A program made the position numbers and the translations under genes. From the NCBI GenBank assembly GCA_030544185.1, contig JAUNRO010000202.1, positions 1-6,034 on the forward strand: a DNA stretch of 6,034 nt, in the 5' to 3' direction. Below, in pieces: positions 1 through 6,034 of the stretch (positions are counted from its first letter, which is position 1; each line of letters starts with the position of its first letter). Origin of the DNA: Propionibacteriaceae bacterium. GTDB taxonomy: Bacteria; Actinomycetota; Actinomycetes; Propionibacteriales; Propionibacteriaceae. The notes beneath the pieces were generated by a model, which saw only the letters and a list, made by a program, of their open reading frames with translations, was not told the DNA's origin and made no database searches.

Positions 1-16
1 TCACTCTGGCGGTCAC
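1..16 (-). CDS. Possible start of a following gene overlapping the integrase end
   Basis: A GTG codon at 16-14 on the minus strand is preceded by GGAAGG (31-26) with a 9-nt spacer, an excellent ribosome site. It lies out of frame with the integrase, whose reading frame is still open at the window edge. This would fit a short overlapping, translationally coupled next gene. Only five codons are inside the window, so nothing can be said about the product, and the site may equally be an accident of the integrase C-terminal codons. Confidence 0.25.
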
Positions 17-1268
17 TTTCTGGGTCCTTCCGGAGTACGGCGGCGGCGTCGACGACGGTATTGGTGTCAGTGACTGCGGTGAAGTGCTGGCGGTTGACGG
101 CCTCGGTGTGGCCGAGGAGCCGGACGCGGGTCGCCTCGGGCAAGGTGTCGTACAGCAGCGTGTTCAGGGTCGTGCGCCACGAGTGGCCGCGCTCGACCTC
201 GAACATGGGCAGCTCCAGGTCCTCGGCGATGGCCATGTAGAGGGCGGCGATCTTGCGGTCGCGGTTGCGGGGGTCCCACCGCTTGGCCGCATCGGTCGGC
301 GTCGGGAAGAGCGGGTGCGATGGGTCGGCAACGGCGTCGAGGCGCCGCGCCAGCCGCTCGCTGATCCGTGGGTCGAGCACGGGCACCGGGCGGTCTTTGC
401 GCGTCTTGACGCCCTCGGCGGGCAGCCAGAACACGAAGGTCCCGTCGGCGTCCACGGAGCACTCCCCCGCCGGCCGAGTCGCCAGCTCGCTGGTCCGCAG
501 GCCGGTGGTCGCCTGGGCGAGGATGACGTCGATGACCTGGCCGCGCTCGCGGATCGCCTGGTCCCACGTCCAGCGGCCGCGCTTGGGTTGTGGGGCGTCG
601 GTGGGGTCGAGGGTGAGCAGGTGGTCGACGACCCGGCGGTAGTCCGTCAGCGACAGGGCCTTGCCTCCGCGGTCGACCTTGGGGGCCTTGGCCTCCGACA
701 GGTCGAGGTCGAGGTCGAGCAGTGGGTTCCACTCGATCAGCTCGTCGACCTTGAGGGGGGCGGCGAGGTACTTCTTGGCGACGATGCGTGCGTGCTTGAT
801 GTTGCCCTTGCCGTGGAGCCTGCCGATCTCTTCGAGCGCCTCCTTGAGGGCTCGGGGCCGCATGGCGTCGTGGATGGAGAGCCCGGCCAGCGACTTCGGG
901 TGCTTGCACTTGGGGTCGTCGCACTCGCCGCGCAGCAGCCGGTAGGCCAGCTCGTAGCGGCGCGTCGTGGTGTCGGCGAGGCGGTCTGCACGGATGGCGG
1001 GCAGGGTCACCGACTCCATGTAGCTCAGTACGGGGCTCAGCGGCGTCCAGGCGGCGTTTCCCGGGGCCTTGAGGAGCTTGTCGGCCGTGGCCTTGGCCCG
1101 GCTGCGCACGATGCCCTTGGTGGGCGCCTGGGTGAGCTTCTCGACGAGCTTCCCGCTGGGCAGCCTGAGCCGCCACTTCAGGGCCCATCCGTCGCGGTAG
1201 GGGAACGGCTTCGCGCGGTCGATGCTGTGCTGCCCCGGTTCGAGCCGGGTGGTTGCTGCTCGGGCCAT
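1..1268 (-). CDS. Tyrosine recombinase / phage-type integrase, 3' end cut by window edge
   Basis: A site-specific recombinase that would integrate and excise the element. The minus-strand frame from ATG at 1268 is open for 422 codons and runs off the left edge without a stop. Residues about 75-180 look like the core-binding, SAM-like domain and about 200-415 like the catalytic domain. Family residues are visible in order: Arg258 in TTGLRTSEL, Lys288 in EGVKTRKDRPVPV, His362 and Arg365 in GHSWR, and His387 in LLGHTEA. Nine residues after His387, where the family has its nucleophilic Tyr (as in HYTHV), this protein has Phe396 (codon TTC, 83-81), and no Tyr follows within the window. A Cys116-x4-Cys121-x-His123 group in the N-terminal domain might bind metal. 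A GAGAGAAAG stretch lies 9 nt before the ATG. The gene is divergent from the excisionase and rep genes. A 423-codon plus-strand frame covering the same DNA is an antisense shadow without family motifs. Confidence 0.93.
   Translation of the reverse strand, partial: MARAATTRLEPGQHSIDRAKPFPYRDGWALKWRLRLPSGKLVEKLTQAPTKGIVRSRAKATADKLLKAPGNAAWTPLSPVLSYMESVTLPAIRADRLADTTTRRYELAYRLLRGECDDPKCKHPKSLAGLSIHDAMRPRALKEALEEIGRLHGKGNIKHARIVAKKYLAAPLKVDELIEWNPLLDLDLDLSEAKAPKVDRGGKALSLTDYRRVVDHLLTLDPTDAPQPKRGRWTWDQAIRERGQVIDVILAQATTGLRTSELATRPAGECSVDADGTFVFWLPAEGVKTRKDRPVPVLDPRISERLARRLDAVADPSHPLFPTPTDAAKRWDPRNRDRKIAALYMAIAEDLELPMFEVERGHSWRTTLNTLLYDTLPEATRVRLLGHTEAVNRQHFTAVTDTNTVVDAAAVLRKDPESDRQS
9..21 (+). 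repeat. Direct repeat copy A, GCGGTCACTTTCT
   Basis: This 13-bp sequence is identical to the copy at 1271-1283 and matches 12 of 13 bases at 1304-1316. The three copies lie in the same orientation, one at the 3' end of the integrase frame and two just upstream of its start codon. They could be recombinase arm-binding sites or operators. One exact 13-mer pair in about 6 kb is not very surprising alone; the third copy and the placement make it more notable. Confidence 0.4.
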
Positions 1269-1543: not shown

Positions 1544-1585
1544 GAGGCCGACGGTCATCCGTCGCCTCCGAAGGAACTCCGATCA
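1544..1585 (+). promoter_or_regulatory. Hairpin next to the excisionase ribosome site
   Basis: GAGG and CGACGG (1544-1547, 1549-1554) pair with CCGTCG and CCTC (1559-1564, 1565-1568), a 10-bp stem with one bulged C and a TCAT loop. It ends two bases before the AAGGA ribosome site (1571-1575). In addition TGATCGG at 1529-1535 is complementary to CCGATCA at 1579-1585, which includes the A of the start codon. Both could limit translation of the operon. Confidence 0.4.
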
Positions 1586-1818
1586 TGTCGCTCTCGACCG
1601 CTGCTGCGCAGGGCAGCCACGCTGCCACTCCTGCCGCCCTATCCCCCGAGGAAGCCGGGCGCTACCTGGGTGGCCTCGCCGCGAAGACGCTGGCCAACTG
1701 GCGCGTCCAGGGCCAGGGGCCCGCGTACGTCCGTGCAGGTGGGAAGAACATCGTCTACCGGATCGTCGACCTCGACGCCTGGCTCGCACAGAACCGTGTC
1801 GGCGGTGATGCCGGATGA
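1585..1818 (+). CDS. AlpA/Xis-type helix-turn-helix DNA-binding protein, putative excisionase
   Basis: A 77-residue protein whose residues about 19-73 fit the excisionase / MerR-like HTH_17 fold: LSPEEAGRYLGG, then LAAKTLANWRVQGQGP as the recognition region, then AYVRAGGKNIVYRIVDLDAWL, the usual wing ending with a D-L-x-x-W-L helix. Proteins of this kind bend DNA to promote excision by a tyrosine recombinase, and many also act as transcription regulators. The start is supported by AAGGA (1571-1575) with a 9-nt spacer. The first 18 residues are Ala/Ser-rich and look disordered. The stop codon overlaps the rep start as ATGA, so translation of the two is probably coupled. Its place opposite a divergent integrase supports a role in directionality. 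It could instead be mainly a repressor or activator of rep, as in actinobacterial integrative elements. Confidence 0.85.
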   Translation: MSLSTAAAQGSHAATPAALSPEEAGRYLGGLAAKTLANWRVQGQGPAYVRAGGKNIVYRIVDLDAWLAQNRVGGDAG

Positions 1819-4118
1819 GCGCCAACACCCGTGCCCCAGATTCAACCCGTCCGACCTGCTTGGAGAAGGGGTCCTCTCCCTTGCCCGAGCTCGAAAACCC
1901 GGGTTCTGGAGGGGTTGAAACCTCCGTACAAAAACGGCCAAACGGACGCAGTCCCGTCGAGGAGGCCCCCGAATCCTGCTCTGACCAGGCCTTAGACGCG
2001 GGCGACTCCTTGGGTTCGCCCGCGTCCGTTTCGGAAACGGACGCAGAGTTCGTCGAATCTGACGCAGCCGGACTTGTCGCCGTGAGCTACGCGGATCAGA
2101 GCATCCCTGGTGCCGATCCGAGCGACGACGTTGCGCCGGTCGTCATCACCTCGACGCCTGGGCACGTAGGTGCCGCTCGTGACTTCTTCGCGGCGCAGAA
2201 GGCCGCCGAGACGAACGACCAGAAGAGGCGGGCTCGTGAGAAGTCCCGCGTGTACTCCGTGATGCAGTACCTCCGCCACCCCAAGACGGGTGAACCGATG
2301 TTTGCCCAGGAGCTGCTCGACGAGGGTCTCGTCACGCTCAAGGACCGTCTTCACCGCTGGTGCTACATCTGGCATGACAGCGACCAGCTCGTCGAGGTGG
2401 ACGAGGGGACGCTGGACATGGTGTGCATCGGCGTCAAGGGCGAGCACGTGCACATGGTGCTGTGGACCACCGAGGACCGCCCGACGCTGCGCACCGTGTC
2501 GGATGCGTTCAGCATTCCGTCGGCGCGGGTGAAGCTGCCGAAGGAGGACACCGCTCGCACCGGCGGCGTGCAGCACAAGGGCCGGGATGCTGCGGAGAAG
2601 GCGTTCTTCGACTTCGCGGAGTACCTGACCCACGAGACGCGCAGCGCAAGTGGCCTGCCCGGCGTGACGCAGCCGGAGCGCTACTACCTGGTGGACCGGG
2701 ACCAGCCCGGGCACCCGGGCAAGTACCAGTACGGCCGGGGCCGGGTCGTCGCCGACTTCGACTTCTCCAAGGAGTTGGACGCCCACATGGCGGGGCGGGT
2801 TTCGGCGGCCGGTGGCGGTGAGGCGAAGTCGCTGCGTGCGCGCAAGCTGAAGCTGCGCCGTGCCGTGGGTGAGGGCATGTCGCTGGAGGACGCCCGGGCT
2901 GCTGACTTCGACGCCTACGCCGACGACCTGCCTCGGCTCCGCGAACTGGCCCGCGAGTATGACGCGATTCAAGGGCGTGAGCGCGCCGCTGAGCTCGGCA
3001 ACACGTGGCAGAAGTCGCTCGTGGTTGCCGTTGGCAGGACCCGTGCGGGCAAGGACGTGCTCCTAACTGAGCTGGTGAATCAGCTTGTCTGGCTGGTTGG
3101 ACTGGCAGGGGCCTCCTGGTCCGTGGTGAAGCCTGCCGGGCGCAACACTTTGGAGGGGATCGGACGCGCCGAAATCGTGCATCACGAGGATGCGCGCTAC
3201 GAGCTGCTGCCTCGCTACGACGAGGCCCTGCGCTACCTCGATCCGAACGACGCCGTCGAGGCCGGGACGCGCCACAAGAACACCGCTGCCCCGACACCTC
3301 GCGCGATCCTCATGAGCTCGTCCGAGACGCTCCTCTCGTTGGCCTACACGCTCAAGAGGCGCGCTGACTCCGAGTACCTCGCCGAGCTCGCCTCCGACCA
3401 CAAGACGGCACCGAAGCTCCCGCTCAACGTCGATGAGTTCTTGTACCGCATCGGGTGGGCCGTCGAGGTCACTAAGCCGGACCACGTGGACCCGGATGAT
3501 TTCGACGCTGTGCGTGCCGAGATGTTGGTCGCGGTGTCACGGGTCCGGGAGGGCTCGGACACCAGGATCGAGCCGGTCGTCAACGGCAACGGGGACTACA
3601 TCGGGAAGATCCGCACCGGGCATCGTCTGGACCCGGTGGCGGTCATCAAGGGGTGCGATGCGGCGGCTCGGTTCCTGGCCGTTTCGATCCTCGCTGAGCG
3701 GAATCCTGACGTCACCTCTGCGATCCCCGTCGAGGCACTTACCGACCTCCTTGAAGAGCAGGCCGGGATCGAGTCCGCGGCCCATGCTGAGAGGGTCGCG
3801 GAAGAGCAGGCTCGTGAGATCGAGCGGCTGCAACGTCAGCTAGCGGACATCAAGCGGGATGAGCAGCGCCGAAAGGCTGAAGCCCAGACCCGCGAAGCGG
3901 CCTCCGTCGAGGCTGCGCGCTGCACCTGCGAGTCGCGCCCGTACTACCTCCGGGACCACGACGACGCATGTCCACGGTTGCCTGCTGACGAGCGTGAACG
4001 CCGCGCCAAGGAGCGCCGCGTAGAGGCCGCGAACAAGCTCGAAAAGCTCCGCCGCAACGGCCTAGTTCTGGACGTGCCGAACAACCAGACCCCCCAGCCC
4101 CTCGCTGCCGTCCGGTAG
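1815..4118 (+). CDS. Rolling-circle replication initiator: RepB-like HUH endonuclease fused to a P-loop ATPase
   Basis: A 767-residue protein that would nick and unwind the element's origin. Residues 1-130 are low-complexity and acidic. Residues about 140-320 match the pMV158 RepB (Rep_2) pattern: HDSD at 187-190, the metal motif EHVHMVL with His211 and His213, the nucleophile motif EYLTHET with Tyr270, and GKYQYGRG followed by VVADFDF (303-317). Residues about 395-520 resemble a superfamily 3 helicase: GRTRAGKD as Walker A (407-414, ending in Asp instead of Ser/Thr), IVHHED (454-459) as Walker B and AILMSSSE (497-504) as the following motif. Residues about 650-700 form a charged coiled coil, then CTC...H...C (Cys703, Cys705, His715, Cys719) may bind zinc. 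Plain RepB proteins are much shorter, about 210 residues. No strong ribosome site precedes the ATG; coupling through ATGA with the excisionase gene is likely. GTG at 2082 is a possible later start. Confidence 0.88.
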   Translation: MSANTRAPDSTRPTCLEKGSSPLPELENPGSGGVETSVQKRPNGRSPVEEAPESCSDQALDAGDSLGSPASVSETDAEFVESDAAGLVAVSYADQSIPGADPSDDVAPVVITSTPGHVGAARDFFAAQKAAETNDQKRRAREKSRVYSVMQYLRHPKTGEPMFAQELLDEGLVTLKDRLHRWCYIWHDSDQLVEVDEGTLDMVCIGVKGEHVHMVLWTTEDRPTLRTVSDAFSIPSARVKLPKEDTARTGGVQHKGRDAAEKAFFDFAEYLTHETRSASGLPGVTQPERYYLVDRDQPGHPGKYQYGRGRVVADFDFSKELDAHMAGRVSAAGGGEAKSLRARKLKLRRAVGEGMSLEDARAADFDAYADDLPRLRELAREYDAIQGRERAAELGNTWQKSLVVAVGRTRAGKDVLLTELVNQLVWLVGLAGASWSVVKPAGRNTLEGIGRAEIVHHEDARYELLPRYDEALRYLDPNDAVEAGTRHKNTAAPTPRAILMSSSETLLSLAYTLKRRADSEYLAELASDHKTAPKLPLNVDEFLYRIGWAVEVTKPDHVDPDDFDAVRAEMLVAVSRVREGSDTRIEPVVNGNGDYIGKIRTGHRLDPVAVIKGCDAAARFLAVSILAERNPDVTSAIPVEALTDLLEEQAGIESAAHAERVAEEQAREIERLQRQLADIKRDEQRRKAEAQTREAASVEAARCTCESRPYYLRDHDDACPRLPADERERRAKERRVEAANKLEKLRRNGLVLDVPNNQTPQPLAAVR
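1862..1905 (+). repeat. Additional small dyads at the start of rep
   Basis: GGAGA (1862-1866) with TCTCC (1875-1879), or AAGGG (1866-1870) with CCCTT (1878-1882), can form alternative short hairpins. AACCCGGGTT at 1896-1905 is a perfect 10-bp palindrome. They add to the unusual density of dyads in the first 230 bp of the rep frame, although each is short enough to occur by chance. Confidence 0.3.
1932..2067 (+). repeat. Short repeats AAACGG and GACGCAG around the rep 5' dyads
   Basis: AAACGG occurs at 1932-1937, 1940-1945 and 2035-2040, and its complement CCGTTT at 2026-2031. GACGCAG occurs at 1945-1951, 2040-2046 and 2061-2067. Combined, AAACGGACGCAG is a 12-bp direct repeat at 1940-1951 and 2035-2046. 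Small repeats beside hairpins are typical of Rep binding loci in rolling-circle origins. Here they lie inside the rep frame, in codons for the low-complexity leader of the protein. Confidence 0.5.
1995..2044 (+). other. Candidate double-strand origin: two overlapping perfect dyads inside rep
   Basis: GACGCGGGCGA (1995-2005) and TCGCCCGCGTC (2016-2026) make a perfect 11-bp stem with loop CTCCTTGGGT. GCGTCCGTTTC (2022-2032) and GAAACGGACGC (2034-2044) make a second perfect 11-bp dyad with a single central base. The two share GCGTC (2022-2026), so only one can form as a hairpin at a time. This DNA encodes residues about 61-77 of Rep, a low-complexity part where codon choice is probably free. By analogy with rolling-circle plasmids that keep the origin within or beside rep, it is a good candidate for the Rep nick and bind site. 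An alternative is an operator for Rep or the excisionase. The pMV158 nick sequence itself is not present here. Confidence 0.5.
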
Positions 4119-4147: not shown

Positions 4148-4546
4148 ATGAGCATCAACAAGTACGCCAACGAGGTTCAAGGGCTCTCCGCCGAGGCCCT
4201 CGCCGAGCAGGCTGAGCGGGTCGAGGCGATCAAGGCCGAGACTGCTTGGCGGAAGAAGAATCAGGCCAAGATCGACGCCGGGATCGTGGCCCGCGCCGAG
4301 GCCAAGGACGAGGGTTCCAAGCGCTGGATGGAGGAACTCCGCAAGGAGATCATCGGCGAGCTTCGCAGGGCCGAATCGCTGAGGAAGACCGTTGCTGAAT
4401 CGGCTCCGAAGAAGACCGCTGAGCAGGCTGATTTCAAGCCGGATTCGCGCCCAGTTCCGCCCGCTGCGCAGGCCCAGCAGGGCGGCCCTCAGGGCACCTC
4501 GCAGCAGGCCGGAATCAGCCCGCAGAACATCGGCGGGCGGCCGTGA
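4148..4546 (+). CDS. Small charged coiled-coil protein of unknown function
   Basis: I do not recognise this 132-residue protein. Residues about 10-90 are rich in Glu, Lys, Arg and Ala with a helical, coiled-coil look and Trp at two places (TAWRKK, KRWMEE). Residues about 93-132 form a Pro/Gln/Ala/Gly-rich, probably disordered tail. There is no signal peptide, membrane segment or catalytic motif. The start is well supported by AAGGAAAGGA (4131-4140), 7 nt before the ATG, and the gene begins 29 bp after rep on the same strand, so it is probably in the rep operon. Its position between rep and the candidate oriT and relaxase suggests an accessory role in replication or mobilization, but this is inferred from context only. 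Confidence 0.75.
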   Translation: MSINKYANEVQGLSAEALAEQAERVEAIKAETAWRKKNQAKIDAGIVARAEAKDEGSKRWMEELRKEIIGELRRAESLRKTVAESAPKKTAEQADFKPDSRPVPPAAQAQQGGPQGTSQQAGISPQNIGGRP

Positions 4547-4558
4547 TCTCGGCCCTGT

Positions 4559-4593
4559 TTCACCCCTCGGCGGCGCGTCCGTCGAGGGGTGAA
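4559..4593 (+). terminator. Strong hairpin after the small gene, terminator-like
   Basis: TTCACCCCTCG (4559-4569) and CGAGGGGTGAA (4583-4593) are perfectly complementary. The inner bases extend the stem to 15 bp with one G-T pair and a CGCGT loop. It starts 13 bp after the stop codon of the small gene. There is no T tract, so it is a terminator of the T-less type common in actinobacteria, or part of an origin. Confidence 0.55.
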
Positions 4594-4716: not shown

Positions 4717-4781
4717 GTCAAAGTTCAGGCGTCAGCCGGTGGAGCGCAGCTCCAGAACTTTGACTTTACGGGGCTAAAGCC
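4717..4781 (+). other. Candidate origin of transfer (oriT)
   Basis: GTCAAAGTTC (4717-4726) and GAACTTTGAC (4755-4764) are perfect 10-bp arms. Between them TGGAGC-GCA-GCTCCA (4740-4754) forms an inner hairpin directly against the right arm. Immediately after comes CTTTA-CGGGGC-TAAAG (4764-4779). This is the most A/T-containing part of an otherwise GC-rich gap and lies about 135 bp before the relaxase start. MobV relaxases act at an inverted repeat just upstream of their own gene, which fits. The nick position cannot be told from sequence. TTGACT at 4760-4765 could also be a -35 element, but I see no good -10. Confidence 0.5.
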
Positions 4782-4914: not shown

Positions 4915-6034
4915 ATGAGTGAGGCAGCCAGCCGGGCCGGGTTCAACGTACGGCACCTGCGGCACGGTGAATCTGGCACGAAGGCAGACCGCGCGTCGCT
5001 GCTCAACGAGTCCATGCGCGAGCTGGACTCGAGGGCAGCGAAGTTCTACGCGGACAAGAACCCGAACATCGTGGCCGCCGACACCGCCTTGAACGTGGCG
5101 ATGGTCAACGACGGCCAGGGCGGGTTCCGGCGGGCGAAGTCCACGAAGGAGGTGCTCGACTACGGCGACGCCAGGATCGGCACGAAGCAGAACCCGAAGG
5201 GCGAGGATCGGGTCGGCAACACGGGCCGCAAGTGGGACCCGAGGAGCTTCGAGACCACGCTGATCGTCACCGCGCTCCCCAAGTCGCTGTGCAAGGAGAT
5301 CAAGAACGTCTACCCGATCCTGGACGACGAGACCGGGAAGCCGGTGCTGCGGGCCGACGGGACGCCGCTGATGAGGTCGCGCTGGGTGGCCCGGGACAGG
5401 GACGAGGCGCTGAAGTACTTCGCGAAGGCGGCTGAGTTCCTGGGAGCCAACGTCTTCACCGGCGGGCAGGCAGCGATCCACGGCTACGACGTCAACCTGG
5501 ACGAGGCCTACCCGCACATGCAGCTCATGGCCGACACGCTTGCACCGAACCCGAAGAAGCCCGGATTGCTCCGCGTCGAGGCGCAGCAGATGTGGGGCGT
5601 TCATGCCTCGGTGCGTGACCCGGAGACGGGAAAGGTCGAGCAGCCCAACGCCAAGATGAGCCGCTACCAGCGCGAGTTTCGTGAGCACATGATCGGCCTC
5701 GGCTACGACGTCGAGAAGGACGCTTCACCCCGGGGCCCCGCTAGCCACGGCCGGGAGGAGTGGGCGGAGATGCAGAACCGCGAGCGGATCGCCGAGGCGC
5801 TCGCCGAGGACGCCGCCAAGGATCGCGCCAAGGTGGCCGGATGGTCGGAGCGGCTCGGCCGGTTCAGCGACGAGTTGGACGACGAGCGCGAGGAGTTGTC
5901 GGAGCTGCGCGAAGGGGCCCGGGCTGAGGGCCGCGACGAGGGGCTGCGCCAGGCCGCCGACGAGACCGTCGAGATCAAGCGGAGGGCCAGGGCTGAAGGA
6001 CACCGCGAGGGCCGGGAGGAGGGTCTGCGCGAGG
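4915..6034 (+). CDS. MobV-type (Mob_Pre) plasmid mobilization relaxase, 3' end cut by window edge
   Basis: This protein would nick oriT and pilot the strand during conjugative mobilization. The 373 visible codons run off the right edge. The start is firm: AGGAGG (4900-4905) lies 9 nt before the ATG. Visible Mob_Pre features in order: RHLRHGES (His14 or His17 as the motif I His, the nucleophile in MobM), NPNIVAADTALN (49-60) as the N-x-D-I...N motif, the metal motif region NLDEAYPHMQ (194-203), then SRYQREFREHMIGLGYDVEKD-like sequence (249-269), matching the MobM region after its metal motif. Residues about 285-373 are a charged coiled coil with RAEGxxEG repeats, as in other MobV proteins. Odd points are that the usual HxDExxPHxH has Asn194 and Gln203 in place of the first and last His, and that the stretch between the motif I His and the next motif is longer than in MobM. 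Confidence 0.88.
   Translation, partial: MSEAASRAGFNVRHLRHGESGTKADRASLLNESMRELDSRAAKFYADKNPNIVAADTALNVAMVNDGQGGFRRAKSTKEVLDYGDARIGTKQNPKGEDRVGNTGRKWDPRSFETTLIVTALPKSLCKEIKNVYPILDDETGKPVLRADGTPLMRSRWVARDRDEALKYFAKAAEFLGANVFTGGQAAIHGYDVNLDEAYPHMQLMADTLAPNPKKPGLLRVEAQQMWGVHASVRDPETGKVEQPNAKMSRYQREFREHMIGLGYDVEKDASPRGPASHGREEWAEMQNRERIAEALAEDAAKDRAKVAGWSERLGRFSDELDDEREELSELREGARAEGRDEGLRQAADETVEIKRRARAEGHREGREEGLRE

Follow-up and report, generated by a model that had tools for sequence, protein, structure and literature searches.

The rolling-circle double-strand origin (dso) of pT181 lies within the rep coding region, where the nick is made in an extruded palindrome and the peptide encoded by the region is dispensable for replication (PMC5703833). 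In pMV158 the nick falls in the loop of a hairpin that has repeats next to it and a further three 11-bp repeats at a distance (PMC9943647), and for pJV1 the reported nick, CCTAGGTAAA, lies immediately 5' of rep (PMC13346255). Integrating actinobacterial elements with rolling-circle replication are represented by Streptomyces replicons and by actinomycete integrative and conjugative elements (AICEs) of the pSAM2 type (PMC3218068), and the YLxH supergroup of bacterial CRESS-like Reps (pCRESS4-8), found on integrated elements, joins an HUH and YLxH nuclease to an SF3-type helicase (PMC6668415). Here we analyzed a 6,034-nucleotide stretch of DNA from a Propionibacteriaceae bacterium (GenBank assembly GCA_030544185.1, contig JAUNRO010000202.1; the whole stretch is called the window below), whose rep gene (1815..4118, forward strand) encodes a disordered leader, an HUH-like nuclease and an SF3-like helicase. 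Our analysis indicates, with a probability of roughly 0.87, that a hairpin in the leader codons belongs to a rolling-circle dso inside rep, with the nick in the hairpin loop and Rep-binding repeats around the hairpin.

Like the dso of the pT181 family, this segment lies inside the rep coding region (hairpin 1995-2026 in the open reading frame [ORF] 1815-4118), whereas the pT181 family has a Rep_trans protein, the model of the present nuclease matches HUH Reps, and the segment sits in the 5' leader ahead of the nuclease. Embedded origins are already known from pT181, but with another Rep type; the origin proposed here would be a variant with an HUH/SF3 Rep. The pMV158 dso (pE194/pMV158 family) is not part of rep, and its distal repeats are found 84 bp downstream of the nick, whereas in the layout here the distant repeats are upstream, everything is within rep and the Rep has a helicase domain. 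The likeness to the pCRESS4-8 Reps is one of motifs and domain order (HUH plus YLxH as motif III, with the SF3 helicase after the nuclease); no origin is described for them in the passages of PMC6668415 consulted, and the Rep studied here has a long leader that holds the hairpin. With the Streptomyces replicons and pSAM2-type AICEs the element would share the character of an integrating actinobacterial rolling-circle element, while the Reps there are of the RepSA/RepAM type. A search of open-access literature yielded no description of an origin for Reps of the present kind, and one may exist.

An earlier note, made from the letters of the window alone, had proposed an embedded replication origin at two perfect dyads with 11-bp arms that share five bases, and both dyads were confirmed. 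In dyad 1, the putative origin hairpin, the left arm (1995..2005) is the perfect complement of the right arm (2016..2026), and the arms enclose the ten-base loop CTCCTTGGGT (2006..2015), the presumed nick region; these and the following coordinates of the origin region are on the forward strand. In dyad 2, a putative Rep-binding palindrome, 2022-2032 pairs perfectly over 11 bp with 2034-2044 around the one-base centre 2033, so that 2022-2026 are common to both dyads. They are the window's sole perfect dyads with arms of at least 9 bp and a loop of at most 12 nt. In 300 dinucleotide-preserving shuffles, such dyads with arms of at least 11 bp averaged 0.067 per shuffle; 19 shuffles held at least one, one held two, and none held two within 60 nt of each other, in keeping with the claim that such a pair is not a product of chance. 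Folding of 1985-2050 as a DNA single strand was predicted at -18.2 kcal/mol, compared with an average of -11.5 for shuffled sequences (z -3.2); in that fold every one of the 11 dyad 1 pairs is made, alongside the five innermost pairs of dyad 2. The dyads do share five bases, as the note said when it called them mutually exclusive, but exclusion is not complete, and the switch-like layout that it read into them is unsupported because dyad 1 does not prevent the inner part of dyad 2 from forming. Dyad 2 looks like inverted copies of the flanking repeat, that is, a binding site and not a rival hairpin.

Related rep loci were collected by an alignment-based scan of genome contigs, which gave a set of 20; an earlier genome-contig scan with a single Rep protein as the query had returned no relatives. 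The named relatives among these loci are actinobacteria; relatives occur in Arthrobacter and Tessaracoccus, for instance. In 18 of the 20 loci the rep reading frame contains, 5' of the nuclease domain, a GC-rich hairpin whose loop includes CTTG. The loop reads (C/T)TCCTTGGGT in 13 of the 18 (L001-L012 and L016), CTTCTTGGGT in L013 and L015, and TGTGCTTGT, CTTGGGCTTGT and CATGGGCTTGT in L014, L019 and L020, respectively; five of the 13 fall into two groups with one segment each, so that the 18 hairpin loci represent 15 distinct segments. Retention of the peptide with loss of the dyads was not seen among the 20 loci, since the two in which the hairpin was not found (L017 and L018) have an ORF in which the beginning of the nuclease domain is missing as well. 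Additional loci consistent with the hairpin are L031, L068, L069, L092, L091 and L090, in the last of which CTTG extends from the loop into the stem. The HUH search expression was unmatched in L020 and L091, although both have a Rep ORF and a hairpin. The pattern TYCTTGGGTNNSCSCGYRNCMGTTT, by design blind to the types of L004, L016 and L069, matched 2 of 60 and 3 of 200 genomes, namely those in which the Rep match begins in the leader, and the reversed pattern matched none; the origin pattern had no match in viral contigs.

The loop also allowed conservation of DNA to be told from conservation of peptide. One common reading frame runs through the loop in 15 of 17 compared loci, and another frame is used in L016 and L069, where the ten loop bases are unchanged but the peptide is GGLLG, as against SLG in the common frame. 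Because the same ten bases sit in another frame in these distant loci, it is the DNA that is conserved rather than the peptide. Codon use was compared in the 13 common-frame loci, L016 and L069 being left out for their other frame. The loop codons TTG and GGT are fixed in all 13. Of the degenerate residues in the segment, four are fully conserved, and each of them has a single codon throughout (TTG, GGT, GTT and GAA), codons that account for 12-18% of usage in these genes. Elsewhere in the gene, 9 of 98 fully conserved degenerate residues showed single-codon uniformity, and an equally uniform run of equal size was found in 0 of 206. The silent positions that vary include the centre of dyad 2 and one stem base. 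Conservation of nucleotides at silent positions, which the earlier note had predicted for an embedded origin, was thus found both in the fixed codons and in the loop kept across frames, and this homologue comparison supports the segment as a candidate origin. It offers a clear case of codons in a coding stretch held by a DNA function, revealed by a change of reading frame.

The stems, on the other hand, change in pairs. Two alignments were used: A2, from which L016 and L069 were left out, and A3, from which the near copies L003, L009, L011 and L068 were dropped together with L069, whose stem is offset by one base. In dyad 1, the share of paired cells was 90.1% (72.5% in shuffles). Both sides had changed in 7 of the 11 pairs, and the covariation score was 0.463 against 0.169, a value reached by 0 of 500 shuffles and compared with a maximum of 0.076 for slid versions. 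With L016 replacing the near copies, 8 of 11 pairs had changed and the score was 0.574 against 0.176. In dyad 2, 95.9% were paired against 89.1%, 4 pairs had changed, and the score was 0.238 against 0.097; the two results are not independent proofs, because five columns are common and the rows are related. Two observations on dyad 1 weigh the other way: among 11 rows its outermost pair is intact in only 3, and it shows no more pair types than the shuffles.

The AAACGG/GACGCAG repeats reported around the dyads are present in the window. Upstream, AAACGGCC and AAACGGACGCAG occupy 1932..1951, and downstream AAACGGACGCAG recurs at 2035..2046, both being putative Rep-binding sites with a 12-nt word in common (1940-1951 in the upstream copy), followed by the partial repeat GACGCAG (2061..2067). 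The three copies of AAACGG on the forward strand of the window all lie within 1932-2040, and GACGCAG occurs additionally at 2061 and 2666. In a test that omitted L031 and L092 because they nearly duplicate L002, 14 of 20 loci had a word common to both flanks of the hairpin, above the codon-shuffle expectation (p<=0.05); at that threshold none was found in L003, L005, L013, L015, L019 and L068. The length of the shared word is 12 nt in the window, 15 in L016, 20 in L069, 16 in L014, 20 in L020, 17 in L090, and 11 in L004, where the word is a different one; by eye, several of these words consist of ~9-nt units in tandem, and their sequence differs by lineage. Dyad 2 is the flanking repeat in inverted orientation; in the main group it is preserved through changes on both arms at once, as L068 illustrates, and it was not recognised by eye in L016 and L069. 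Of the two nick places proposed earlier, the dyad 1 loop is favoured, whereas the centre of dyad 2 was rejected as a freely varying silent position of a dyad not recognised in these two loci.

L068 is a mosaic around 1556-1676: over the 100 bases 5' of the loop it matches L001 at 99%, and immediately beyond the hairpin it diverges and carries different repeats. The changeover is at the foot of the hairpin, which fits an exchange at a nick site. What L035-L043 and L070-L119 have in common with some loci is the excisionase region and a leader start of ~35 residues; short YLxH Reps of ~470-550 aa follow, and replication modules seem to have been swapped at the leader in these elements; a (C/T)TCCTTGGGT hairpin was not shown for this short-Rep class (L070, L085 and others) despite the common excisionase and leader start. 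The rep loci of L003 and L007 adjoin an apparent serine recombinase (ORF starts judged by eye) and not an integrase of the window's type, so that the integration modules differ and rep and hairpin stay.

The Rep protein itself is predicted to combine an HUH-like nuclease fold with an SF3-like helicase fold. The motifs H211, H213 and YLxH with Y270 and H273 are invariant in 29 of 29 aligned proteins, and the helicase follows at residues about 395-636. The HUH assignment is made because of a VIA-align match to HUH Reps and these motifs; Foldseek alone gave no match for the nuclease model at E<=0.001, Pfam, NCBIfam and PHROGs named no family, and the Rep profile had no match to PDB sequences at E<=1. 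Neither Rep_trans nor Rep_1 was found among the 29 Rep members at E<=1, and a Rep_1 identity was rejected on that ground; searches of plasmid records, phage records and viral contigs had no match to the Rep. Residues 1-91 have a predicted local distance difference test score (pLDDT) below 50 and vary among relatives, consistent with the earlier placing of the dyads in the codons of a leader peptide; as the leader appears disordered, its codons would be free to serve the DNA. A database prediction starts rep 22 codons downstream (P0001, 745 aa), and the hairpin is intragenic with either start.

What marks a dso, a conserved hairpin loop beside a rolling-circle Rep and specific repeats near the hairpin, was found at this locus. 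We infer that, on a supercoiled excised circle, Rep would bind the short repeats flanking the hairpin, dyad 1 would extrude, and the HUH nuclease (through Y270 of YLxH) would nick the rep-coding strand in the loop. The nick would most likely fall within or just after CTTG, a guess made because CTTG begins the Rep_1 nick CTTGATA (PMC10378824); the nick of the pC194 family (Rep_1) is otherwise different, the loop here reading CTTGGGT with CTTG alone in common. The free 3' end would then prime leading-strand synthesis while the SF3-like helicase domain opened the duplex, and Rep would close the circle once the site was remade.

Alternatively, the hairpin might act in the rep mRNA, by translation pausing or message marking, with covariation at the level of RNA. 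In favour of this, rep transcripts include the segment, close behind the start codon, and covariation is blind to RNA versus DNA. Against it, G-U pairs are few (at one pair of dyad 1 in 2 of 11 rows, and at two pairs of dyad 2 in a single row apiece), no Rfam match reached the gathering threshold, and the loop carries the start of a known DNA nick. Lineage-specific repeats on both flanks would be expected of a protein-binding DNA site and not of a single mRNA hairpin, and we regard this explanation as improbable. That the hairpin is the origin of transfer (oriT) for the element's Mob-like protein appears more doubtful still. The window does encode such a gene, and the pMV158 oriT, where three hairpins exclude one another and MobM drives a switch, is a precedent for overlapping hairpins as a switch (PMC5863519). 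However, a MOBV oriT stands with its MOBV relaxase, whereas here Mob homologues adjoin rep in 7 of 20 loci and none was found at E<=1e-3 in 11 of the 18 hairpin loci (the L006 stretch being short); the hairpin tracks the Rep type, and a separate dyad-rich site at about 4717-4777, directly upstream of mob, is a better oriT candidate. An oriT identity was rejected because of this Mob distribution and the separate site. Least probable is an operator for Rep (or Xis) controlling rep expression with an incidental hairpin: inverted or direct repeats near a gene start are often bound by regulators, and both roles can coexist, but an operator leaves unexplained the near-invariant loop with a freely changing stem and the loop's conservation across reading frames.

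Beyond this locus, the embedded dso favoured here may be typical of a class, and we consider it fairly probable that there is a class of actinobacterial CRESS-like Reps with an origin cassette in a disordered N-terminal leader, in which short repeats, often ~9-nt units in tandem, surround a CTTG-loop hairpin and the leader is mainly a holder of DNA. Loop and layout would be kept down to 24-35% Rep identity, the repeats, and with them Rep specificity, would diversify by lineage, the frame would be variable, and initiator and origin would be inherited and exchanged as one piece. With its near-invariant loop, changing stems and lineage-specific repeats, the predicted origin opens the nick site, the specificity of Rep and the exchange of origins to direct testing, and supplies a sequence signature for such elements.

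The setting of rep is that of a small mobile DNA element. An integrase gene truncated by the window edge (3..1268, reverse strand) matched phrog_1 (E 7.6e-6), with no match in Pfam or NCBIfam, and an excisionase-like gene (1585..1818, forward strand) matched PF12728 and phrog_66 (E 5.4e-6); its stop overlaps the rep start in the ATGA at 1815. Direct repeats beginning GCGGTCACTT, at 9-36, 1271-1298 and 1305-1332, lie at both ends of the integrase gene and are possible arm sites of the integrase or excisionase. No tRNA gene as an integration site was found in the window or in 8 related loci, and an end overlap of 12-199 bases, sought as a sign of a circular contig, was not found. The Mob/relaxase-like gene (4915..6033, forward strand) is truncated by the other window edge and had no match in Pfam, NCBIfam or PHROGs; it may be MOBV-like, judged by a motif. 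Upstream of it, the candidate oriT at about 4717-4777 consists of an inverted repeat, GTCAAAGTTC...GAACTTTGAC, followed by TTTACGGGGCTAAA; by eye, a similar site precedes mob in L001, L004, L007, L010 and L016 and is not evident in L014. Between rep and the Mob-like gene lies a small ORF (4148-4546), and immediately 3' of it a perfect 11-bp dyad with a 13-nt spacer (4559-4593) is a candidate terminator or other signal.
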